From NCBI GenBank assembly GCA_902702965.1, contig CACRXP010000426.1:463363-527362 (forward strand): a DNA stretch of 64,000 nucleotides, in the 5' to 3' direction. The position numbers were made by a program, and so were the translations under genes. The notes under the pieces were generated by a model that was not told where the DNA came from, searched no databases, and saw nothing but the letters and a program-made list of their open reading frames with translations. Positions 2,961-57,600 of this stretch are shown piece by piece. Position 1 is the stretch's first letter. The number at the start of each line of letters is the position of its first letter. This stretch comes from Spirometra erinaceieuropaei. Its lineage: Eukaryota; Platyhelminthes; Cestoda; Diphyllobothriidea; Diphyllobothriidae.

Positions 2961-3189
2961 TGCTTTTGCCTATATGTGTTTTGGGGCCTGAGTGTCCACC
3001 AAACGGGTAACTCGGTAGGTGATTTGAACTAGCACGGGAGCTACATCGGATTATGGTAGGCGTTATCGGAATGTGCACCATAATAGATGCGAACGTTTGG
3101 GGTGCGGTGGCAGGCCAAGTTACCGGCTGACGGCCCCCCCCCCATTGTTATTGCTGACTTAAAATCCTTGTCAAATGTTGTTGTGGGCC

Positions 3190-3590
3190 AGAAGGTGTGG
3201 GTCCGGCCGCGCCATCGACCTGCCCCCCCCCCGATTCTGGCATTCTTGGCTATATCTTGACATCGGGTCTAGGTGGGGAAGGGGGAGGAGGAGAGTGTGC
3301 AGTAGATGCTGCGCAAGTCCACACTCACTATAAACTAATTCACGTGCAAGTCACCGTGCCTGCTTCCTCCTGATGTGCGGTGCACGGTGGACACCTTTCG
3401 GCACGACGGTCAAACTGTCGTGTTTGGGGCCCTATAGGCGGCTGTACAGAGACTAGTAGAAGACTGTCGACAAAGACAGGGGAGGTTGGGATGGCTCCTT
3501 CTGGTTTTTTATCCATTGTCAGCGGTCTGCTGTTTGTTGCCCTCCCACATTTTCTGTCACCAGAGAACATAGGCGCATGAAACTGGTGCG
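3190..3590 (+). repeat. GC-rich dispersed repeat
   Basis: One copy of a family seen also at 15377-15830, 26380-26640, 35640-35830, 41730-41920, 48130-48330 and 57405-57720. The shared core is a G-rich tract, then AGTAGATGCTGCGCAAGTC, ATAAACTAATTCACG, CAAGTC and a segment around GACGGTCAAACTGTCGTG. It has no coding capacity that I can see. Poly-C runs at 3130 and 3220 adjoin it. Confidence 0.55.
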
Positions 3591-9500: not shown

Positions 9501-12500
9501 GAAAATTATAGAAGTATTATCAGTCCACGGGGATAATTATATGAATAGTCAATGGCACACCGTTAACAATTTTTTTAAAAATGACCCCAGCTTCTGCAAA
9601 TATTAAAGAACTAGGTTGTTTAATAGTGCTTCGGAACAATTGCTCTAGATAAGGGAAGTTTCCGGGATATAATTATTGTATAAATATGGACCTTTGAGGA
9701 GCACTGAGAGCATAAATAAAAATGCTCACCACCTAAAGAAGGACGGGGTTCCAGAGATCCACCTGTGGACCAGCAAATTCTCCAGATGCGAATCGCTCGA
9801 AAATGTATTTAGGTTTTTCCTAGACTCTGTCCAATGCTTCTCTGTATTGCAGTTCAGAATAATCCGTATCAGTTTAATAAGGCATTTGTTGTTTTGAGTG
9901 AAATTTCGTAAGTTTGGACTCTTCTGATTTTATCAGTCTTCCTCCAAATAAAAAAGTTCGCTCTTGCGATATAAGTCTATTTGTTTCATTAGACATGCCG
10001 AGTTCAAATACGAATGTACACAGCCCGCTTCAAAGAAATCAGTTAAAACAAGTGGAATCTTCTCAAAATGTTGTAGGCGCCGGGGTTGACAAAACAGCGA
10101 CCCACGTTTTTAGATGTGTTTTCAGACTGAAAGTTACTTGGTCGAAGTCGCTAATCCGGTAGGTATGAAGCCTACTTCAAAATACATTCATTTATCTTAG
10201 TAGATTGACTTCTTAATGAACTGGCTTCTGTCTACTGCTGTAAAATATTGCAAGAAATGAGCGGCACTTGTGAAGTTGATGTGTGTTAGGTAGGTTTGAT
10301 ATCTGTTCAGATTGGAAAAGTTTAGAGATCCGGGAAGATTATTAGAAGAAGAAAATTGGCTCTCCGGAACAGGTTTATTTAACTGCTGAAGTCCTATGTT
10401 CAGTAAAAAAATGAGGAAAAATTCCTTTATTACACATAGTTTATAGGAAGTTAAAATCTCACTATTTTTCAAAATTGCAAAAATTAAAAAACTAGAATAC
10501 TTTCCTTCGTTAAATACAAAGTTCAAAGAAAATTCAAATAATTATAGAAGGAATAGAAAAAAGTATTTAATTAATTGTCCCAAAACCTGACCGACTTTAT
10601 ACACACGTCGACAAAAACTATAAGCAAAAATTGAAGCAAGTAATAATTTAGTTTTGGATGAAGTTTGCGCAGTTGACTGACTTGAGATTCAGCATGTTAC
10701 CGCGTATGGAGTTATTTAAAAGTGCACTTCGTAAACTGGTCAGTCTTTTGGGAGACGCATTTGTGCCAAAACTGTCTAGGGTAAATTCAGAAGAGTTAAA
10801 AGCGGAGGTGAGTAAAACCAAAGTTGAGCTGCAGGTGGACTTCATTGACGCACTTTATTCCACCACGAAAACAATGACATATGAGTGTAAATGATTGCGG
10901 TATAACGAAAGACTCTTTTGTACTAGGAATAACGGAAAGATATGTCGTTTCTTCTGGTCCTAATTTGAATGCCACTTAATAGATGTTTATGTCTGCTCAA
11001 TCTAAACCATGTATCTTTTTCAACCAGCCAGGTCTTTTTTAGAAGTTGGCATAAATTTTGCTTTGCAAATGATGAGAGACATAAAACCCGAAAGCGGCCT
11101 TGTTCGATATCGTATAGTGTAGGACATTCGCGAGGGAAACAACGCAAGAACAGACACCAAAACAATCTGTGCCGTGTATTCGAAGGCTGTAGATGTCCAC
11201 AAGTACCATTTGTGACTTGTGAAAGTCCAATCGAGCGATTTCAACCTTTTTAATGCCCCTTGTCGGGAAGACCAGTGGAGTTGGATAACGACCCCTGGGG
11301 CGAACGCAAAGGCAGTTGGCGCCCAGGTCTATTGAGCACCTACCCGGAGAATGAGAGAATTTCGACCTCGTCGAATTTGAATGTTTGGCCGCAAGAGGTG
11401 ACAACCGTGTGAGCCGGGAGCTACTTGAGTCTTGGTTTGCTGACCCCCAGTCCATTAACAAGTGCAATGACTTTCCTCTTCCATACTTGGTGCTGAGACT
11501 TTTCCTAGGCGGAGTAATAAGCCACGCGGGGAGCGCAGGAGTGAACACTTTTCCCAACTCCAGGGTCGGTTGGTCAGATGGTCGAGCAATCATCACGCCA
11601 ACGTTCAGCACACGTTGTGAAATTGCTACAATGAACGACGCGAATGTCAGCCGTCAACCAATTAGCACACCAAGTGCGACGATCCTCAATGAAGTGGGGA
11701 GCCGTGAATGTTCATAGGTATGCCGTAGCATGGTGACTGCATCCTATAAATACTGCAGCCCCTTGTGCATGAACCACCCGTATCTGCTTTTGCCTCTGAT
11801 GATGGGTTCGAGCAAGAATCCGAAACGTCAGGCTAATAAAGCTCTTGTCCTAGCGATCGTGTCTCCTTCAATTCTTCCAAGTACTTGTCCGGGCACGAAC
11901 AGCTCGGACATTTCGTTGCCCGGAGGTGGCCTTTATATGGCGGGCGAAACCAGGTTTACGTAAACAACAGGAATATGTGGTCAGCCTAACTTTGCCATGG
12001 TAACCTCTAGCTCTATGATTTTCACATTCCCCTTTCCTTTTTCTCGTTAAGGTTTTTACCACTATTCTTCCCGTATTGTGTCTAAGCTACTACTTTTATC
12101 GATCAGCCGACATTGCCCAAAACCATGACCTTGCTGGCTGTGCATCAATTTTCCGGGGAAATTCAAACAGCTGTGTCGTTCACATTCGCTATTTATGTTA
12201 TGAAACGACAGGACGTAGCTGATGAGCCGTCACACAATAAATCCTGCCTTGCACGCTTGTCTCAGCACCGCAACTGTTTACGCAGATCCTCGTCAGACCA
12301 AGAGAGAATTACCAAGAAACCCAGATTTATAATGGTCTATTATCCAAAAGCAATTTCGGCAGGTAGGAGAAGTCAGCAGACAGGACGTTCGGGTCAAACG
12401 CTAACTTAAGATAGAAAACAAATTCCAACTTTCCTCAACTGGCGATTCATAGTTAAGTAGACAGGGAGGGGGGCCATTCCTTCATCGAACTTTCACCGGA

Positions 12501-18500: not shown

Positions 18501-21500
18501 CGTTATGATATATAAGGGCAATCTTGGGCATGTCTTTGACTCTGTCTAAGTATGTGAGTTTTTTTCTATCAAAGTAGTATACTCTTAAGGGTTTCTCCAA
18601 AAAGTCTTCCGCACTTGAGAATTGAGTTTTTGCCCTTTGCTGATCGCAGAAATCGGCTTGCTAACACGGAGGCTACTTTTGAGAACGAGACGTTTCATCG
18701 AGCTCTAAAGGTCGAAATAGCAAATTTGTGCGATTTCGTGTTCAAAAGTGCTGTAATAATTCATACAGTCAATTTTTCGTTGGAATGGACCGAAATTCCT
18801 TTGCCACTCCAAAAGTATACCTTCAGATACCAGATCAATATTTACCGATTAGGCATTTTCAGTTTCAAACATATAAGGACTTGCCGAAGCAGGCAGGCAG
18901 GGCAAAATTTATTGGTGCCCAAAAATTTCGCGAAGACTCGTCAGCTGCGTCCTGTCGCCAGTGCGTCTGCAGAGTACTATGGAAACGTCAAAGACTGCCA
19001 CAATTAACGTTCAATCTCTTTTAAACAGCCAATTACAGTAGGTGGGCTAACTCATGAAATGTTGACTGAAATCCCAAAGTGCGTTTTCTTTTTAAAAATA
19101 TTAAGTTTGGTTGTAAAACTAATCATCTTGTTGCGTAATTCTACGGGAATTCAGTTACCTCAGAATGAACTTCTCTTTGGCTGCATGCGACAACTATACT
19201 CTGTAAAAAATCTACTTAAATATCATGTATTTTTCTCATTACCTGTTGATGCCCTTAAGAATTCAATTATATTTCATGGAAAGCATGCAGAAAAATATTC
19301 ATTCTTTTGCTCATTTGGTAGAAAATGACGTTTTCCTTCTATGTCATACTCAAAAAGGGTAAACGTCGGTTTTCAGACATTTTTGTTTCATTCACTGTAC
19401 CCCGCCCTATGTAAATGTATTGGCCTGATGAGAAATAACCGAAATGAACGTTCACTCGCCTGTAATTTAAAACCTTACTTTTATCGATTTCTTCAATTCT
19501 CGAATAATTTTTAACCCAGCCTGCCACTAAACTTGCATTCAGGGTTTAAAACTACAAGCCGTATATCTCTGCTGTACAGAAATCCATACAATTCTCTATG
19601 GTATAACGAGAAGACCATTTATATTTTATAAGATCTGGCAGTGGATTTGAGTTACATCAATAACTGTAAAAGCTACACTGGCAAATTCAGTAAGAATATG
19701 TGGCTAGCCTAACCTTTCCATGGTAGCATTTAGCTCCATGACATTCACTTCCCCTTTCTTTGTGTTTGTTTACGCTTTTTTGACTGTTCTTCCCATACTG
19801 CGTTAGAGTTACTTATTTTATCGTTTACCCGGCAATACCCAAAACCTTGATCTTTCTTCTGCATTTATTTTCTGCAGGAATTCAAATCTGTTGTATTCTT
19901 CTCGCTTGTTATGTATGGTATGAAGCGACAGGACGTAGTTGACAAGCCGTCGCGGATGTTTTCGGTGCTGATAAATCCTGCCCTGCTTGCTTGCTTCAGA
20001 TTCGTACCGGGACAAAATGCTCCAGCTATAAAGCTTTAGTTTTTGTGCGGTTTTCTTTTGGCGTGTACGTAGTTTAGAAATGAAACGAGCTAAACATTTA
20101 CAATTTCAACAAAATAGCAGTATTCACATGGCCAGTCTGTCGTACATTCATAATCGTAGAACGAAGCCTACAAGTCAACAAAGATAGCGGAAATGGACGC
20201 AGTATCTAGCGAGGGGCATGTTCTTACGTTTGCGGAGGAAAAATATCTGCATATTTTAGCACCGTGAAAGAAAAGGCCTGGTGTTATATTCCTTTTTGAT
20301 TTCACCACACAAAAATGTAAAGTACGCAGGCTTCCGTTAGGGGAGGTCAGTTTTAAGACACTGCCTAAAAGGCAATTTATTAGAGGATGTTTTCTAAATG
20401 CTCGAAAGTCCATTCGTTGTTGGCTTTTTTGTGGATATTCCTTTTCCTCCCCGATGAGGTTTCATGTTTTATATGACCCAAACGACCTTCTGCATGGAAA
20501 TGCATGCGTAGATGATTCATATTCACCTAACTGTAAAATACTCGGCGCCTCGGTGGGGTTCGAACCCACGCAGTAAGGGGAAGGCTTTAGTACAGCCAAC
20601 GATCTAACCGCTTGAGCTACGAAGCCTCGCCGGATGACGAGAGTTTAATCATATCTGGGTCAAGTTTTTCACAGTTGGACCAATATGAATTATTCAAAAT
20701 CTGCAAAAACATCTGTGAATGCCTAAATATTCTTTAGTTCGATATATAACCTTAAGGAATATTTCATTTTAAGGCTTCTAAAAAGCATGCAAGCGAAAAT
20801 CTATCCCTGCGTTCAGCCGACTGAAAAACTGAAAATCGTGAAGTGCCCAGCTATATTTCGAGGCTGATTTTAAGTTCAGAGTAGGCCAGTACAAACGTAA
20901 GCGTGGGTAGCGGCGGTCTTGATATGAAAACAGAACAAAAGACCAGTCAGCTGAATTGGTTCTACTGCCAGAATTTTTTTTATTTGAAGGAGAGTGTGTA
21001 GCTGGCGCTGTCACGTGCCGGTGGAGATACTGGTTAGCGTCGGCCCCGTATGAAGGCCGTGAGAATTTAATAACCTGGCCAATTGACCAGGTTGAACGGT
21101 TGAACCGTTGAACGGTTCTTGCCTTGCTCGTTGTATGGGCCACGTTCAACGCCCACGAACAACCAGAACAACCACCAGGGTCCCGCTAATGACCAATTTG
21201 TCTATTGTCTCCCCTTGTTTATGCAGCCGGCTGCGTTCCCCCCTTTCGTAATCTCAGTGTTAGGATTTAAACTGCTCTTATCCGTTTTCTCCCCCTGCTT
21301 CCGTACCCCTTTATTATCTAACCCGTTATTATAATAGTATCCCATTCAGACTATATCCTTCTAATGTTTGAAGTGTGGCGTCTGCATGCCGATAACTGAG
21401 GTACTAATACTCAGTCCCCCGTAGGTCGTCACATATTTTGGTGGCAGCGGTGGGATTAGGGGATCCATGTAACTGGCGGTCATAGATGAGGGATACATTG

Positions 21501-45680: not shown

Positions 45681-48600
45681 CACCACCATTAATACAATAT
45701 CTCAATGCTTTTACTGCTAATATGACTACCAGTGCAAGTATGTTTGCTATCTCGCGAAGTGCTAACCGAAATTTTGAAAGTTGCCTTCAATCCAAAAATA
45801 ATATTTAATTAGGGTCGTCACATTAATTATCCTTTAGCGTAATGCTAAGGTAATTCAGTCAAATCGAGATGCGGGTTTTCGAATCAGCTTCTAGGTCTTA
45901 TGCAAAAACAACACTGCAAGAATTGCAATTTAAATGGCATGCATTTTCTACATTAAGTTCCAATGTCCTTATAAATTCAAATAAGTGATGTGGAAATCAT
46001 GCACTAAAATATTCTTTCTTGTTCTTACTTGATAGCAAATCACGTCTTCAGTTTTCCAACTGGAAAAGAGAGTATGCAGTTGGTTGGCTAACTCATGAAG
46101 TGTCAGCCGAAATTCCCAAATGCGTTTTCGTTTCGGAAAAATAACTAAGTAGGGTTCTCAAAAACTCATTATGCAGCGTGGTTCTATAAGAATTCTGTTA
46201 CAAACAGTTCGAAAAAACTTGTTTCCGGTTGCATATAAAAACTATACTCTTTAAAAAATAACTACTCATTTAGCATGCACTTTTCTCATTTATGTTGGAT
46301 GCTGTTAAAAATTCAATTATGTTTCGTGAAAAACATGTATAAAAGTATTCATTCACTTGCTCATTTGGTATAAAATGGCGTCTTCTTCCAATATGATACT
46401 CGTAGGAAGAGTATAATTTAGCCTTAACAAAGTTTCTGATTGTGAGATTTTATAAGATCGTGAAATGATCATTCACGAAACTTCATGCCCATGCAGTTAC
46501 CACTGTGGCTTGTAAAGTTAACAATATGGCTTAAATCCACTGCCAAGTTTTATAAAATCCATGTGGTCTCCTCTCAATACCGTAGAGAAATGTATGGTTT
46601 TCCGTACGCGCAAAATATACGGCTTATAGATCTGAAAGCCTGAATACAAGTATAATGGCAGGTCAGGGTTTAAAATTATTCGGGAGTTGGAAAAGTGTTT
46701 AAAACGCTTATTATATTTTTCCTTTGAGTATGAAATTTAAAGGAAACGTAACCTTTTACAGAATAAGTGGAAAAATGAATATTTTTATGTGTTTTTTATG
46801 AAATATAAATGAATGTTGAAGGACCTCGAAAGTCAATAAGAAAAATGTATGTCACATAAGTAATCATTTTTTACAGAGTATGGTTTTTGCCTGTAGTCGG
46901 AAAGAAGTTCTTTCGAAAGCCGACATCCTGAGGTAAATGAAATATTATAGAACTACGCTGCATCATGATTTGTCTGACAAGCTCACTTGATTAATTTTTC
47001 CGAAAAAACGCATTTTCTAGTGTTGGTTGACATTTCATGCGTTAGCCCACCTGCTGTAAGTCGTTAAGCCAATCTTTTTCAATTCCCGAATAATCCATTG
47101 CCCCATCCGCTGCCATACTTGCATCCAGGTTTCCAAACTACCTGCTGTGAATATATCGTTAACGGGACGTCACAGATCTCTTTTCCCTTTTAGGACGTTG
47201 TCATATTGGCCTCATACAATTGTGCAGTAGATGTTGATCAGGTGGTATACTTTAAAAGTGGCATTACTTAAGCTGCTGCTGTGCTTCTGTATTAATGGAC
47301 ATTTCACAGTCTTAGAAGAATATTTTTGTGCATTTTTTCTAAATGAACTGTATAGATTCATAAGGGCACATATAGTCAATAGGGGAAAAACCGTACTACA
47401 TGGGTAATTATTTTTACAGGAGTGCATTTTCTGTAGACGGTCGGAAAACAGCGCATTCGAAATCCACCATCCTGGCTGGGCTGAAAAATCTTAGGATTGT
47501 TCTGCATAATATTCAGTATTATAACATTGTCTAGCATATTCAAGTTAAATTAATCTAGTTTTGCCTCCTTTCCATTGGTTAACAGAATTCAAGCACTTTA
47601 TCACGTGTCTCGGAAATGCAGACACCGCATTGCATGTCCCAAGTTAAAGTTTGCGCATTTTTGGTTGCCGACGACTGGCCTGACAACCAATAAAGTTCGC
47701 AAATTCGACGTTTTACGATCGAGTACGTTTTGCCCATACTCCCCTTGATTCCTACTGACACGAACAAAATTCCTTTTGTAGAGGTCACCTACAGAACAAA
47801 TCTTTTGCTGAAGTCGACGAGGATTATCGATATGCCCAGGTCAGTTGAGCCTTACATATGGATTTGAATAAAGTGCGGACGCATCTTCATTTTCCGCATG
47901 CCGCAGACATGTGGGTTGGCTATTCCACACGAACCAGTCTTAACTTATCCACATAGAGGGAGTTTCCATTCGAAAGGAACAACTACGATTTGGATCACAG
48001 CCCTGAGGAAGTTACGTATCAAGTCACCGGTAGTAGCACTGCCTTTAATGATGCTGCTATCATTGGTACCGTTGCGACCACTACTAGTTCGAACATCATT
48101 GCCGACTATTTCCGCTGTGTGCTCTACAGAAAGATGAGATCAGGCACGGTGACTTGTGCATGAATGACTTTATGGCGATAGTAAACTTGCGCGGAATCTG
48201 CCGCACTCCTTCCCCCCTCGCTCACGTGAGCCTGCTATCAAGGCTAAGTCAGGGGGACCGGAGGCGGGACCAGGAGTAGGTGGCTGGCGCGGCCGCACCT
48301 GCACCTGGGCGTACCACCACACCCCTGGTGAACATCAAACACCTGACCAGGATTTTAACCAAAAAATGTGGGTCAGAAAGAGAAGGATAAGACAAGTAAC
48401 TGGGCGACCATGCACGCGACCTGTATACCCAGCGGGAGCGCAAGCGCATTTACTGGCAGGGAACAAGGTGCCAGTGCACAGCAAACTGCATAGATCATGG
48501 TTTGCCGAATCATGGCATGGCAGATGCACGCAGTCCTTAAATCCTTGCCAGATTCACTGGTTCTTCTACCGCCACCATTACGAATGCCTTCCACTTCTAT

Positions 48601-51600
48601 TACGACAACCGCTGCAAGTACTACCTGCATTATTACTTCAATACTGCTTAGACTATTGTTGTCTTCGCCGCCGCCGCTGCTGCTGCCACAACAAACACAT
48701 TCAAACCAAAGTAGTTGGTACACATCAACAACAGGTCCGCGACCAGACCTTCTGAAACTGCTGCCCTTGGCGATGAGCAGACTGACGATTCGAGCATGTC
48801 CATTGAGGGCAGCAATGTGTAGAGGAAGACGGCCCCTGTCGTCGGGCGTGTTCATTGCCCAGAGACCGTGAGCTGTGCGCAGGAGACTCTCGCAGGTCTT
48901 CAGACAGCCCTTGTGAGCGGCCAAATGCAGTGGCGTCTCCCGTTCATTGTTCTGAGCGGTGCAGCTGGCACCCAGATCGACGAGCTCCACTGTGAGGCTG
49001 AGTTGACAATCTTTCGTGGCGTAGTGGAGGGCTGTGCAACCGAATTCATCCTTCTCCTCAAGCAGTAAAGGGAAAAGGCCATGCTGTTGGCGCGTCGGGG
49101 TTGTGGCAGTGGTGGGGTGAAAAAGAGAAAGGAGGATGATGAGGTTGAATGGCTTTCAGGTTTTATTGTCCAGACATCTTTCTATGCGCATGTGTATGGG
49201 CCAACTTCTAACCAGATGATTAATACGCGGCTGCAGCAAGTGAAGTCAAAGAAAGGGTGGCTCTACTTGAGGAATGCAATTTAAATGAACCTAGAACACT
49301 CAGTGAGCGAGAATTGATGTTAAGATGATCTGACATCACTTCACTGGAGATTTTCCGTTCACAAATTGCGATAATGTAATTAGTTTTGACGCGGCTACAT
49401 TCTGAATAAGTCATGCTTACCATCATCCACCGCCTACCTTCTAAAATATTCCCTGATGAGAGACTTCCCGAGGCGCGTGTACTCAGATAATCCAGGAGTA
49501 CCATCATATCGAGGTGACATTCATCAGTCTGTATGGCATCTTGCCTGCTATGAACTCAGATTTGGAAATGGCGTTTCCCTCTGATTATAATAAATGGACA
49601 ACGGATCAAATGAATCCTAGATCCATAGGGAACCGTTGCATTTAAAACCACTGCACGAGTTTCGTGTGTCCTTCATGGTGTTTCTCAACTTTTGACAGTC
49701 AACGGGCGGAGATATTGCCTTGCGTTATTTCCATTAAAACTCTTTTTCTAAAAAAACCTTCCTGCTAGTGGTGGAAGGAAGCAGTTTCATGAAGTTGCAG
49801 TCATTAACACCATTTTCGGTATCCCTTTCCCTCGAAATGTTACGGCATTTTGCTGGCTTGGGATATTGAGATCGTGTTTTTTTGCAGTTCTATTTATCCC
49901 CAGGACTGGGTACAAGTGTGAGACTGGACTAACGTTTGAAGTTAGCTCAACTTGTTGAATATCTGTAAAACACCCAAATTTGAAAAATTCCAAGATTCTC
50001 GATCGTCATGCTAATTTCATGCGCATGCTTTCATGAGTTCGAATCCTGCTGAGGTCAGTAAGTTTTTCACATATTTACCCCTTGGGCTTATTTATTTATT
50101 AATCATAAAAATAATAGTCCTTCGAATGAGAGGGGAAATTGTGGCCCGACGTTCAAGACGACTGAGGTCTACCGGCAACTTATAAAGTCAGCGGTTTGCA
50201 CTTTTCAATGACTTACAACACCAATGTCGACAGCGGTTATGCAGCTTCAGTCAGTCTAATTTCATTGTGCTTGTCTGCAATGATGCTGGAACTCCCCGTG
50301 GACAAGAAGTCAATACGAATGCTGGAACGAGAGCTTCATTAGCCTGCCGTTTCGGATTCTCACCGAATCCATCACCAGAGTCAGTATTTATAGGGTTACT
50401 TGCTATGTCATTGTAAGCTTTTATGCATTAACTGCTCCCGAATGAATTGCAAACACTTGCGCGTGATGTAATAAGGGCCTGATTGACCTATGCGACCTTA
50501 CGCTCTAAAATGCAATACTAAACGTACTGATGTTGTTCCTCTATAAACAACTGTGAAGGGACCCATCATCACGTGCTCACCGTTACTTCCGAACATGTGG
50601 CAAGATAATCTTTGTGCAGCTCACTTACTGCTTAAAGGTAATTTAGAATCGGAAGTGGATGAACCTCAGCAATGTAAACAATGTGACACCATTTATACAA
50701 TCATTCATCTACTCATTCATGATCATAGAACATGACCTAACATTAAGCACTGATAGCGGAAACTGCTGCAACATAGAGGGCCGCTCTAAAACAACGCACG
50801 ACTTTGTCCCCGAACATTCTGGGTTGCTTTTACGGAGAAAACTCCTTTTTATCAACAAAAAAATGGTATACCTACGATTACAGTTTCTGATTCTATTTAA
50901 ATTTATTAATCCCTGACCAGTCTTATAACATATGAACGTATTATGAACGTATTATTATTACGTCCCTACAACACACCTCAACTCTTAGTCTGGCGATTCA
51001 TCGATGCCTACATTTGTTCTCTTATCTTATATTGCTCTCCTGTCATTTTTCCTGCATTGCTCAAAAAAGATCTTTTAATTTTAAAATGAGTCCTCCAAAT
51101 GTTCTCTTATGCCGCTGGTGTTTCACATCTATTTTAGTCGATGTTATCCTGCAACGACACTTCAATTCGGTCAAGCAATTTGCTGGTCGGATTATATATG
51201 AAGTTGTCCATCCCATGCATTCCGATCTTATTTCTGTTAAGCCTTCCCTCCCGATGCGCCGCGGCTACCGATTAATCACTTGTCGCACATCGGCATATCA
51301 AGATTCTGTATTACCATTTCTGGCGCGCTATCTGACGTGTGAAAAGATTGAAATACAGAAGCTAAGACTTGAACTCTCCCCATAATACTCGTTCCTTTTA
51401 TGTTAAACTTTTTGACTCTTGAGTAATCTATTAGCTTTTTTACTGCCCACAGTGAAAAGAGTCAATTTTTGCGGAAAATTTTGAATTTAGGATTTAACAA
51501 TTTAGCGTATTCCTCTCTCTCTTATGAAATTTATAATTCGGGTGGCGTCTGTATCGGCGAAAGCAAGCTTGATCTCCTTTGCTTAAAGCAATCGTATCTC

Positions 51601-54600
51601 TAGCACTATCAAACCCGGAAAATTGCATTGATTTCACGCAGCAAGGTCGTGAAACACATGATCGGACGTCACGAACGTGATTTTGTGCCAGGCTTCATAA
51701 AACACGCATTTCTATTTCTAAGCAACGAAATTGTGCCGGAAATATTTATCATGCCTTTTCATTTAGTTGACGGTCCATTTTGTGAAAGTGTTCTGACTGA
51801 TTTCACGTTGGTTAGTGATTTTTCGTTAATTTAGACATATTTAATGAGATAAGTATTCAACCGTAAGTGCTATAAGCTCGTTATGTGAAATATTAAATAA
51901 TGAATACATTTTTATCCTGGCGAATACAAACTTCACTTCTGCTATGAGGCCTGGCCTTGGCACTGCTACCGGCATCAGGCCTTGCCGATACGGTTGTCTA
52001 ATTTGCATTAAGTACAGACGACAATCATTCACCTTTGTGATGTGTTCCCAGAGCTTTTCGTCCCTGAGGGCACCAGAAATTATGGCCAGATGAAGGATAT
52101 TGCGTGATGACTCATCCAGAGCATGCAGGTCGGCACCCAACTGGATGAGAGTGAGGGCCGCGGCGGTGGCACAATTCTTGATCGCGAGTAACAACGGGGT
52201 ACAACCTGACCAGTCCCGTAACTCCATCGGTGAAAGCTGGAAAGGAGGAGGAACGGCATCAGTGAACCAGGCAGAGACCGCTAACTGTTCACCAGGAAAA
52301 CATTTATAAAAAGCAGACATTGCCACTTCTGAGCCTGGATGAAAAGAGATTAAGTCTTCAAAAATCCAGCCAGTTTCGTCAAGTTTTTTCTCCGTTCTAT
52401 TTAATGACTGCATTTAGATAAGACTCCAAAGCAAATGTCGATCTGTCGAGTGAACGATCTCATGAAAAGTTGGCCGAAATTCTTAAATGCGTTTTCGATT
52501 AGGAAGGATTACTTGGTTGCGGTTGTAATACTGATTATCTTGCGACAAAATCTTATAACATTTCAGACTCAGTAGGATGTCAGTTTTGGAATACACTGCT
52601 TTTGAAGCAAGCAAGGACAGCAGAATTTAATGGCACCACAAAATTTCGCGACCGCTTCTCAACTGCTGCCGGTCGTTGCATAACAGAAATAACAAGTGAG
52701 AAAGGTACAAAGGTTTGAATTTCGACAGAGAAAATCGATGTAAAACAGCAAGGTCAACGTGTACTGTGCGTAGACTAATCGATAAAATGGTAACTTCAAA
52801 ATTCAACATAGGAATGAAAATGGGGAACTAGGCATGCCGAGGGATTTCGAAACTCAAAAGGGGCTCGGGTCTACCAGGGCAAGCTGAGGTTGACCACGTG
52901 GTCTAACTGTTTACATAGGTCGGGTTTCTCCCGCCGTATATAGGCTGCCTCCAGGTAACGCAATAACCGAGTAGTTCGTGCTCGAACTAATACTCGAAAA
53001 GACGTCTTAGGGTCAACCGAATGGCCACTATCAAGGAGATGTTTTGTAATGGAAGACCGTGGAGTCCTGTTCTCCTGCTTTAGAAGCCATTTGGGCAGGT
53101 GCTCAACTGCTCTGGCTGCCAGTTGCCTTTGCGTTCGTCCAATGTACTTGCATCCACAAGTACATGTAAATTCGTAAACACAATTTGACGTGGCGTGCAA
53201 CGACCAGCAGCAGTTGAGAAGCGGTCGCGAAATTTTGTGGTGCCATTAAATTCTGCTGTCCTTGCTTTCTTCAAATTCATTCCGGGGAAATATTCATTCA
53301 AAAATACACTGCTTCTCAATCTCCTGTAGAAACCGTACTGGGTAAATAATGACTACTTAAGTAGCATGCATTTTTCCCATTGATTTTCGATGGTCTTGCA
53401 TATTCAATTATATCTTATAGAAAACATGAACAAACATAGGCTTTTCTTAAGTCAATTAATAGAGGACCCCGTATTCTTTACATTTTATACTCAAGGCGGG
53501 AGTATACTTAGGTTTTGAAAAAGTTTCTAATTATGAGATTTTTAAGACCGCGCAAAGTCCATTCACATAGCACCATACCTCGTCGTTTATTATAGCTCCT
53601 CATGAAATGTACAACACAGTCCGCATTCATTGTAAAATTTTATGGACTCTCTATGATACCTTTTTAATGTTGTAGAAAAATATGTAATTTTGTTTACGCG
53701 GAACGTATGCACCTTGTAGACTGAAATCACTTAGCGCTAATGCAACGAATGACCGGGCTTCAAATTATTCGGGAATTAGAAGGCTTTCTAAAAACCCAAT
53801 TATAGTCCTTCCTTGAGTATAAAAGATAAAGACGACGTGATTTTCTATTAATTAACCGAAAGAAAACACATTTTTGTTAATGTTTTCTAAAGATATATTT
53901 GAATTTGCAAGACCGTCGAAAATCAATGGGAAAATACATGCTACTTAAGTAGTCATTTTTTACTCAGTACGGTTTCTACCGGAGATTGAGAAGCAGTGTA
54001 TTTCAAAGCTGACATCCTACTGAGTCTGAAATGTTATAAGATTTTGCCGCAAGATAATCAGCATTACAACCGCGACCAAGTAATCTTTCCTGATCGAAAA
54101 CGCACCGAAGAATTTCTGCCAACAGTTCATGAGATCGGTCACTCACTGTAACGTCACCGAAGGACAGCAGTTCAAATAACCCTTTACAATTCAAAAGTTA
54201 ACATTTATAAGAACTCCTTGTTCCTGTGTATAAGTACTTACTTGATCAGTCTCCGCACCTAAATAACCTGCTTGTAAGAGGTTGTCATTTGTTTAGGTAA
54301 ACGAAAGGTTTAAAAACGGTGGTAAGTTAATGAGTGTTTAATGGGGCCAGGAGTTAGCTTTTGAGATCTTAACTGTTAAATTGGAGGGGGCGATGACTAA
54401 ATATTACAATCTAGCGATACTGCGAGGAGGAAGAAGGAACAAAGAACACACGTTCATGGGCGTGGCACTCCGTAAACGAAAGACTTGAATGAAGTTATTC
54501 CACACACTCAACACTGAATTCTTCATTTTGATAGTCCTCCGTTCTGCTATCATTGGACTGCACTTTGAATGACTCTGTGGCATACAGCGATCTAGTGTTT

Positions 54601-57600
54601 TTGCAAGAGAATCAGGGAATATCGTCCAGGAGGAAGTAAAGACAGCGAATCCAAGATTAAATTTAACTTAGTCCAAGCACTTTATGTTTGCTTTGGTCAC
54701 GAGGTTGGTGCTGGTCGTGCTGTTAAGATGATCGGTTGGGCACGGAAGTGTGTCCGGACACATTTTTAAGTTCAGCCAGGTTTAAACTTGGCAGTCGCTT
54801 GAGTCGCGGACAGTTGGATTCGGGGTTATCCTACCTGCAGTCGGCCGGTAAGCGGAAAACTCCCTCGCCTCCCCCTCAATTTCCCCGACTTTGCCCAGGC
54901 GGAAGAACCAATCGGATGGGAACTCACGAAGCAGTACTGTCTCGAGGGTACAACTGGTGAACTAAGTTGCGGGATAATTATCATGTCCAAGATTCAAGCA
55001 ACACTCACAATTAACAAGAATCAAGTTGTTGCAGTTAGCCTTTGTCGCTATTGGTACACAAAACCTCACGTCTTTTTCGTTCGCCACAAGGTTTGCTGAC
55101 TCTGGTGCTGTTTTCGAGCAGGAACCCGAAACGGCCGTAACGTGAATTTCTTGTCCCAGCGATCGAGTTGCCGCCGCAACTTCCAGTAGTCTCGACTCTT
55201 GTCATTCAAACACGACGTTTGTAAGGAGGAGAGAGACAGAGAGACAGAGAGACAGATTGACTCCCAGCCTCTGCTAAACGCTAGCGAACTTCGTTAAAGC
55301 TGAGGTAGTGGATTAGAACTCACATGTTCAATCAACGCGGCAGTCATCTCAGCATGATTAAACTTTGCAGCCAAGTGGAGGGGAGTGCATCCCTGCTTGC
55401 AGACAGAGCAGAGCAGTTTCCCCGACTGTTCCGGTTGCCATTCGAGGAGACGATTGAGAACCGAGATGTCGCCTCGGCGACAAGCGAAATGAACCGCGTT
55501 GAAATCTTCGTTTTGTGTGGCCTCGACACAGGCGCCCATTCTGAGACAAAACTGTTAAGACAAGGAGACGAAATTGTAAAACCTCAGAGTACGAACATAA
55601 GACGGAAAAATAAGAGGCGATCTTTGGGAAAAAATTTACCGGCCTGAAGTTTCGGATTCTCACCCACTCGGACTCATTATCAGAGCGGACGTAGATGGGG
55701 CTGATTGAGGCACAAGGAGTGCAATATTTATGGGCCACAGTTGCCACGCAACCACATGCATTATATAATTGGCAGCTCCTGCGCCCACCAATGGGGGTCG
55801 TATCCGGTGCGACTATGACATCCGAGTTGTTAACTGTCGAAATGTAATCACTGTTGTGGAGGGTTGACATGATAATCACTCAACTCCAATTATCGATTGT
55901 CCGCATTCTCCCCACATGACCACTTACTTTGTTCAGGCCAATTCTCACCACAGATAACGGGACTTGGAGTTTGCTTCACTTGCTGATTGGCTGGACGCCG
56001 TAAGACCATCACTCAAGCAGCTCGCGTCTCACACAGTTTTCGTCTCTCGTGAGAATTTCAGCCTTGTCAACCTTGAAGATGAGGACCAACAAAGCATTAT
56101 CGCATCAGCGGGAGCCGCTATCTATAGCAGGCATGTAATAGCATGGCAACTGCAGCCTTTTTTAGTCTTTTTAAGTCTTAATATATTTCTTGGATAAAGT
56201 TCAGAAAATATTCTTTCTTGTGCATATTTGATAGCAGATAAAGTCTTCTTTAAATTTTATATCTAAAGCAGGAGCACTTTTTGCTTTTTAAAAAGCTTTC
56301 AAATGTAAAATTCTTTAAGACCACGAGATATCTAATTACCAAGCATCTTATCCGCCCATTTATTAATGCTGTTTGAAAAATATGCGACATTGTTCACATC
56401 CACTGCAAAATTCTGCGAGTACTATATGGCATTTTTGTAATAACACATGTTGACGTGTGATTTCCCTTTGTGGATGATACACAGCTTATAGCTTCGAAAC
56501 TTCGAATGAAACTACAGCGGCTGGTCATGTTCGGAAGTATTCGGGAACAAGGAAGGTTTTTAAAACCGAAAAGCACCCTCTTTTGGTGCAAAGCTTAATG
56601 ACGTTGTGGTCTGCCACCAAGTGAGCCAGAAGAATAAACAATTCTACGCGTGTTTTTTAGCAAATATTCTTGAAATTCTAAGGGCATCAAAAGTCGATGG
56701 CAAAATGTACACCATTTAAATAGCCATTACTTACAGAGTGCGGTTTTTGAAGGTAGCCGGAAAGAGGTTTGCTCAAAAGTCGACATCCTGATATGATCGA
56801 AATACCTTGTGATTACGCCGCGCAACACCTAGTCCTACAACCCTACTTAAGCAATCTTTTCTAATCAAAGCCTCAATGTAGAATGTCGACCAGCATTTCA
56901 TGAGATAACGCAGTTAATGTGGACGCGACCTGGTGCCTAACCAGGCCGCGTGTGGCATACGTAAACTTACTGTTCCAGCTTTGTCAGCCACCACACCCAA
57001 TCCCTGCACGAGAAAACTGACAAGCTTGGACTGTCAAATGGCGCGCGCGCGAGAGAGAGAAGAGAGGCAAGTCGATTCTGGGGCACTCATTTCCACGATA
57101 GATCAGGACATTCCTCATTATCAGAAACCTGACGTGCTTCAAAACTATCCCCAAGGGTGACTTTTTGGCTTGGAAAGCGGCCAGCCGATGAGATAACTCG
57201 ATTTTCACAGCAACCTTGTGTGGTTCCCAATGTGGCCTTTATGGCACCTCCACCTAGCCGCTTCCTTGGAGTTTCCGTGAAAACATGGTCCGTCGTGCAC
57301 GGACTGGGCCTGTGCGACACGCGTGTAGACGGACTGCTTGACTTAGTCAGCCATTTTGCCCGCTTCTCTCTGCAGTTGTTCACCGTAATCTTGTCACAGC
57401 GCCCAGGTGTTTGAGGGGGGGATGCAGTAGAGGCTTCGCAAGTCCGCCCAACCATAAACTAATTCACGCCCAAGTCGCCTGTGCTGCACCGACTCCATGG
57501 GACACGCGGTAGGCATCGTCGCCTGCGATGACCGAACTCTCCTATACCGGCTGTTTTGACATTGTCTTGTCATCGGGACTGGTGAGCAACAGATGAGGGA

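Follow-up and report, generated by a model that had tools for sequence, protein, structure and literature searches.

A Penelope-like element nested in a palindromic repeat of Spirometra erinaceieuropaei, with sister copies whose paired ends suggest two-ended target-primed reverse transcription

In target-primed reverse transcription, as known from R2 and L1, the 3' end of the target primes cDNA synthesis; in L1 twin priming, cDNA synthesis is also primed by the second target end, which anneals within the same RNA, and the inversion is confined to the 5' part of the insertion. Penelope of Drosophila virilis has pseudo-LTRs (pLTRs) with inverted and truncated copies, and a hammerhead ribozyme at the pLTR-ORF junction has been reported in several Penelope-like elements (PLEs). 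A tail of 30–40 bp is present in a fraction of the Drosophila virilis copies, as recounted in PMC11167929. Pen2a_Av and other Penelope elements of Adineta vaga contain pLTRs inverted head to head, one of which may carry a tail (PMC3846280). For Poseidon from Anolis carolinensis (PAc), the purified protein cuts and extends both target strands, and its reverse transcription in vitro begins at a pair of neighbouring internal positions of the RNA, close to where the ORF starts (PMC11167929). The tail of genomic PAc copies corresponds to the stretch between these two start sites, and the start sites tallied in vitro over pooled reads show no strand difference in the available text of the same paper (PMC11167929).

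The window analysed here is a stretch of 64,000 nucleotides of Spirometra erinaceieuropaei DNA, in which an insert of 701 bp (52602–53302) interrupts one arm of a palindromic repeat (Table 1). An exact 12-bp AATACACTGCTT lies on either side of it, as the first-pass annotation had described. That annotation had also pointed to the opposite arm of the palindrome, near 53990–54005, as holding the site only once, and indeed the complement of 54002–53991 reads AATACACTGCTT a single time and continues with CTCAATCTCC, the same as past the right border. When the insert is removed, the palindrome arms align without a gap through the target site. The blocks of the arms show 90% complementarity over 159 nt and 93% over 76 nt. 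The palindrome's unoccupied site serves as an elegant local control, although alone it settles nothing new.

The insert itself is an unequal inverted dimer, a feature that the first-pass annotation had overlooked: positions 52602–52680 are an inverted copy (98%) of 53196–53275. It thus consists of two copies of the RNA 3' region arranged head to head, with their 3' ends outward. In unit coordinates, with u1 set at 52602, the left arm of the window copy covers u1–599 and the right arm covers u−27 to about u79. We designate as D the end that carries a 27-nt tail and as P the tail-less end, which starts 27 nt further in. The long arm matches the sister copy L049 at 98%.

Table 1. Positions, in the window, of the insertion, its target site and its host palindrome.
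Feature	Position	Strand	Remarks
Host palindromic repeat	52448..54149		about 1 kb minus the insert; outer ends approximate
Left target-site duplication AATACACTGCTT	52590..52601	+	
Long arm, P end, starting outward at the tail-less (proximal) site 52602	52602..53200	-	599 nt; sense strand minus
C-terminal GIY-YIG endonuclease reading of the PLE protein, 5'-truncated	52874..53200	-	stop codon 52871–52873
Short arm, D end, covering the same 3' region of the RNA in inverted orientation	53196..53302	+	5-bp overlap with the long arm
27-nt tail, at the D end only	53276..53302	+	
Right target-site duplication AATACACTGCTT	53303..53314	+	
Empty target site in the opposite arm of the palindrome (pre-insertion control)	53991..54002	-	

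The insert is a truncated PLE of the EN+ Penelope/Poseidon type. This identity, already named in the first-pass annotation, is borne out by fuller sister copies: the full copy L049 contains a reverse transcriptase (PF00078, E 1.2e-11), and the reading of L058 has 36 homologues, several of which are named reverse transcriptase. The C-terminal GIY-YIG endonuclease was recognised from the fold of L058, for which a VIA second look ranked GIY-YIG nucleases first; Foldseek alone returned no match at E≤0.001, and a sequence profile run against solved structures returned one weak row only, a disulfide oxidoreductase. The pseudo-LTR or tandem arrangement is present in just 2 of 12 long loci, with direct repeats at 457–654 and 3119–3316 in L049 (99%) and at 474–888 and 3132–3546 in the reverse complement of L059 (98.6%). 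The predicted fold of the junction RNA is more stable than shuffles (z −2.96) and otherwise uninformative. The element itself is an ordinary PLE, and the part of interest is a one-of-each rule for its ends.

We scored the ends of sister copies in two samples, both limited to high-scoring copies. The first comprised 40 copies, the window's among them, scored out of 2787 first-look candidates (12 of these loci were refetched with longer flanks), and was picked by arm, whichever end was present. The second consisted of 8 copies, out of 9 new exact matches in a set of 93 tailed sites; selected by the tail, it tests D+D against D+P only and cannot reveal P+P. Two ends were recognised in 32/40 copies of the first sample, and each of these 32 had one D and one P end with the RNA 3' ends outward (the P arm of L033 was read by eye). 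Six of the eight copies in the second sample were two-ended, all six of them D+P. Across both samples, 38/48 copies were two-ended and 38/38 of these were D+P, with the 27-nt tail at exactly one end of each.

Two of these copies, L036 and L046, have a common target site and represent one duplicated insertion, leaving 37 independent two-ended copies. If each end chose its start freely at even odds, 37 independent D+P copies would arise with a probability of 7e-12, and the absence of symmetric ends (0/37) sets a 95% bound of about 8% on their share. D and P ends fall into separate clusters spaced about 27 nt from each other, with D starts at u−26 to −23, P starts at u−4 to +4 and none between (31 copies), which fits internal initiation of reverse transcription at two adjacent sites. 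L036 and L046, which lie on contig C218 about 0.52 Mb apart and point in opposite directions, share both their target site and their flanks; they are a single PLE insertion and probably mark an inverted segmental duplication.

The other 10 of the 48 copies have no recognisable second end, and none was seen as D+D or P+P. Six show no second arm in the fetched stretch (L048, L051, L052, L055, L056 and L063), and in the others the outer end of the second arm lies inside the unit (at u173 in L054, u983 in L057, u1026 in L067 and u1058 in L050). No convincing target duplication was found around these ten copies (the fetched stretch of L067 stops soon past its arm). Those from the first sample, 8/40 loci, were listed by hand before arms were assigned. 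Copies without a second end may reflect later deletions or damage, or another route.

A second PLE family is present in the same genome. An older copy of it occupies window positions 18883–20024 (ends approximate), with one tailed and one tail-less end, and has 39 relatives on other contigs among the matches listed. Four copies of this family were checked, the window copy and three relatives; three were two-ended, all of them D+P, and the fourth (L070) showed the tailed end only, within 1.7 kb. Target duplications flank two of the three two-ended copies (13/13 in L069 and 11/12 in L068), and none was found on inspection of the window copy. The tail, as judged by eye, measures about 23 nt (L068) or 32 nt (L069), and the P end (the inner start) is less exact than that of the first family. 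Window positions 11298–12209 hold a decayed PLE remnant, with three short DNA matches to the unit of the first family.

We then compared the two arms of each insertion, and found a divergence of 1.07% within the same insertion versus 2.86% between different insertions (26 copies). Divergence within an insertion was the lower in 21/25 copies (Wilcoxon p 1.4e-4; L046, the duplicate of L036, is left out of this 25-copy test and kept in the 26-copy comparison), and among copies with at least 200 nt shared, the arm from the same insertion was the closest of all, or tied, in 11/12. This arm comparison omits 5/31 copies with <40 nt of shared arm, as well as L033, whose P arm is about 11–13 nt. In L061, a jump from u174 to u463 is common to both arms. 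Because arms of the same insertion are more alike and the L061 jump occurs in both, a single source of RNA most likely served as the template for both arms.

The window copy is a short, dead-on-arrival PLE insertion into an older palindrome arm, probably generated by two-ended target-primed reverse transcription, and the sister copies suggest that both sides of the break are extended simultaneously by copying of the element, each from its own starting point on the RNA. The element's endonuclease, acting as a dimer, would cut the two target strands about 12 nt apart and leave 3' overhangs, as the 12-nt duplication implies. Each target 3' end would then prime reverse transcription inside the element RNA, one strand from the distal site D, whose use yields the 27-nt tail, and the other from the proximal site P, which lies 27 nt inward of D. 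Synthesis of each cDNA would halt at a variable point, the two cDNA ends would be joined by a few nucleotides of microhomology, and fill-in would yield the duplication of the 12 nt. The observed basis for this account is the anatomy of the insert, the target duplication, the empty site, the pairing of D with P wherever two ends were recognised among the copies examined, and the origin of both arms from a common source.

We tentatively propose a stricter form, in which PLE insertion is obligately two-ended and asymmetric, with a single RNA and two start sites 27 nt apart in one protein dimer, each used exactly once, one per cut strand. A single RNA is the simplest account of the exclusivity, but the second enzyme must then copy RNA that is already paired with cDNA. 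A variant that is compatible with two-ended target-primed reverse transcription uses two RNAs, one per protein subunit, in a fixed order, so that D always serves the first strand and P the second, or vice versa. This variant could well be the true one, although we stop short of calling it probable. The arms can cover the same stretch (>550 compared positions in L010, and 550 in L021 and L037), which is simple with two templates, and a protein dimer is predicted in PMC11167929. However, both arms appear to come from the same source copy, as in the shared jump of L061, so that two RNAs of one locus would be needed, which may have been available.

Self-priming, in which a strand of element RNA or cDNA folds back and copies itself and the resulting head-to-head inverted repeat is then inserted, is in our judgement unlikely. 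Self-priming on an antisense template is argued for in PMC3846280 for Adineta vaga Penelope, and both the near-identical arms and the few-bp overlaps at the junctions fit fold-back copying. The head-to-head junctions overlap by 2–5 bp in 21/31 copies, a figure that alignment ends can inflate, and 10/31 junctions are without such an overlap; the overlaps are also expected for microhomology joining, the count standing without a chance control. However, a folded copy cannot outgrow its template, and the tailed arm should therefore be consistently the longer or consistently the shorter of the two. Instead, the longer arm is P in 21/31 copies and D in 10/31 (counting both L036 and L046, which are one insertion), so that neither arm is always a copy of the other, and self-priming with a fixed long arm is rejected. 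Fold-back of a target-primed cDNA would, moreover, copy into the flank rather than give a 12-bp direct duplication at both ends. As separate observations on the structure of the arms, L037, L040 and L044 contain an extra piece of the unit, and non-element DNA lies between the arms of L045 (461 bp) and L065 (294 bp), either as captured filler or as a later insertion.

Two-ended target-primed reverse transcription of a single insertion is further distinguished from composite origins by the target duplications. A genome search for sister copies with duplications, which the first-pass annotation had recommended, recovered duplications of 11–16 bp around 37/38 two-ended copies, L042 being the one with no target duplication. 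In the first sample they flank 31/32 two-ended copies, with lengths of 12 nt in 21, 13 in 6 and 11–16 in the other 4, and 7/31 contain one mismatch (one mismatch was allowed); in the second sample they flank 6/6, one of which (L062) has one mismatch. In a control that left out L033 (hence n=31), the two ends of a copy matched each other in 30/31 cases, compared to 5/462 pairings between ends of different copies, so chance is not the explanation of the duplications. AT content is 0.72 in the duplications versus 0.55 in the flanks, and base tables inspected for a target-site motif separating D from P primers showed AT richness alone. It is highly improbable that the inverted arms were brought together by two separate insertions or by recombination between two elements: tandem copies do exist (L049 and L059), but a single matching duplication brackets both arms in 31/32 copies and mismatched ends match in 5/462 pairings only, and two independent insertions are rejected on these grounds.

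The palindrome belongs to a very large repeat family (11968 first-look candidates), of which we scored the 40 best, the window's own copy and 39 others. In 39/39 of the others the arm is contiguous across the target site, as judged from match coordinates and not from letters; together with the empty site in the opposite arm, this indicates that the insertion is real and younger than the palindrome. The remaining reading, that the palindromic element regularly contains the 701 bp internally, which the first-pass annotation had named as the outcome that would overturn its own, can be set aside almost entirely, since nothing was found in its favour, 0/39 other palindrome copies carry the insert, and the PLE is carried at 39 other places examined, 30/31 of the two-ended copies among them with a duplication of their own. 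These data support the interpretation of a nested Penelope-like insertion.

Several features of the surroundings were also recorded. Contig C523, at about 381648–413473, carries a probable paralogous or duplicated stretch of the window; it is diverged, and the palindrome is absent from it. Among the 39 other palindrome copies, one arm is about 99 bases short in 21 (query 739–751) and reaches 841–845 in 18, and the palindrome family, too, may have two kinds of ends. Ankyrin-repeat coding stretches flank the element on the minus strand (window 48376–49155, 51844–52413 and 55297–55554), and because they lie on both sides, the element may be inside an intron of an ankyrin-repeat gene.

Parts of this picture are already in the published record, namely inverted arms with an optional tail (PMC3846280) and two adjacent starts in vitro (PMC11167929), as far as the available text of these papers extends. 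A strict one-of-each end rule for PLE insertions was not found in the literature covered, including the available text of PMC3846280, PMC11167929 and PMC12910113, a weak absence given that subscription papers fell mostly outside this scope. The dozens of young copies in one genome follow a simple rule that is exceptionless among the two-ended copies examined. If insertion is obligately two-ended, the optional tail of PLEs becomes an invariable sign of one partner in a coupled pair of reverse transcriptions; their inverted repeats become the normal product and no accident. The D+P rule would also unite the tail seen in a fraction of copies and the two start sites seen in vitro into one testable model.

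Compared to PAc, the element described here likewise encodes a protein with GIY-YIG and reverse transcriptase domains and has AT-rich targets (PMC11167929). PAc has a hammerhead ribozyme (PMC11167929), for which Rfam gave no match here in window 51500–55500 (E≤1) or in L049 400–800 (E≤10), searches that degenerate forms could escape. The PAc study, in its available text, does not pair the two ends of one insertion, as is done here, and the lack of a strand difference in its in vitro start sites means that a population average does not itself show the pairing of D with P (PMC11167929). The account of Adineta vaga Penelope in the available text of PMC3846280 draws on few copies, calls the tail optional and puts the inverted structure down to self-priming. 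The likeness to Penelope of Drosophila virilis is one of described structure. Unlike in L1 twin priming, both arms here begin at the 3' start sites of the RNA. The inverted pLTRs and two-strand extension described in the available text of these studies, taken together with the one-of-each rule, point to two-ended target-primed reverse transcription with coupled, non-equivalent starts (PMC3846280, PMC11167929).
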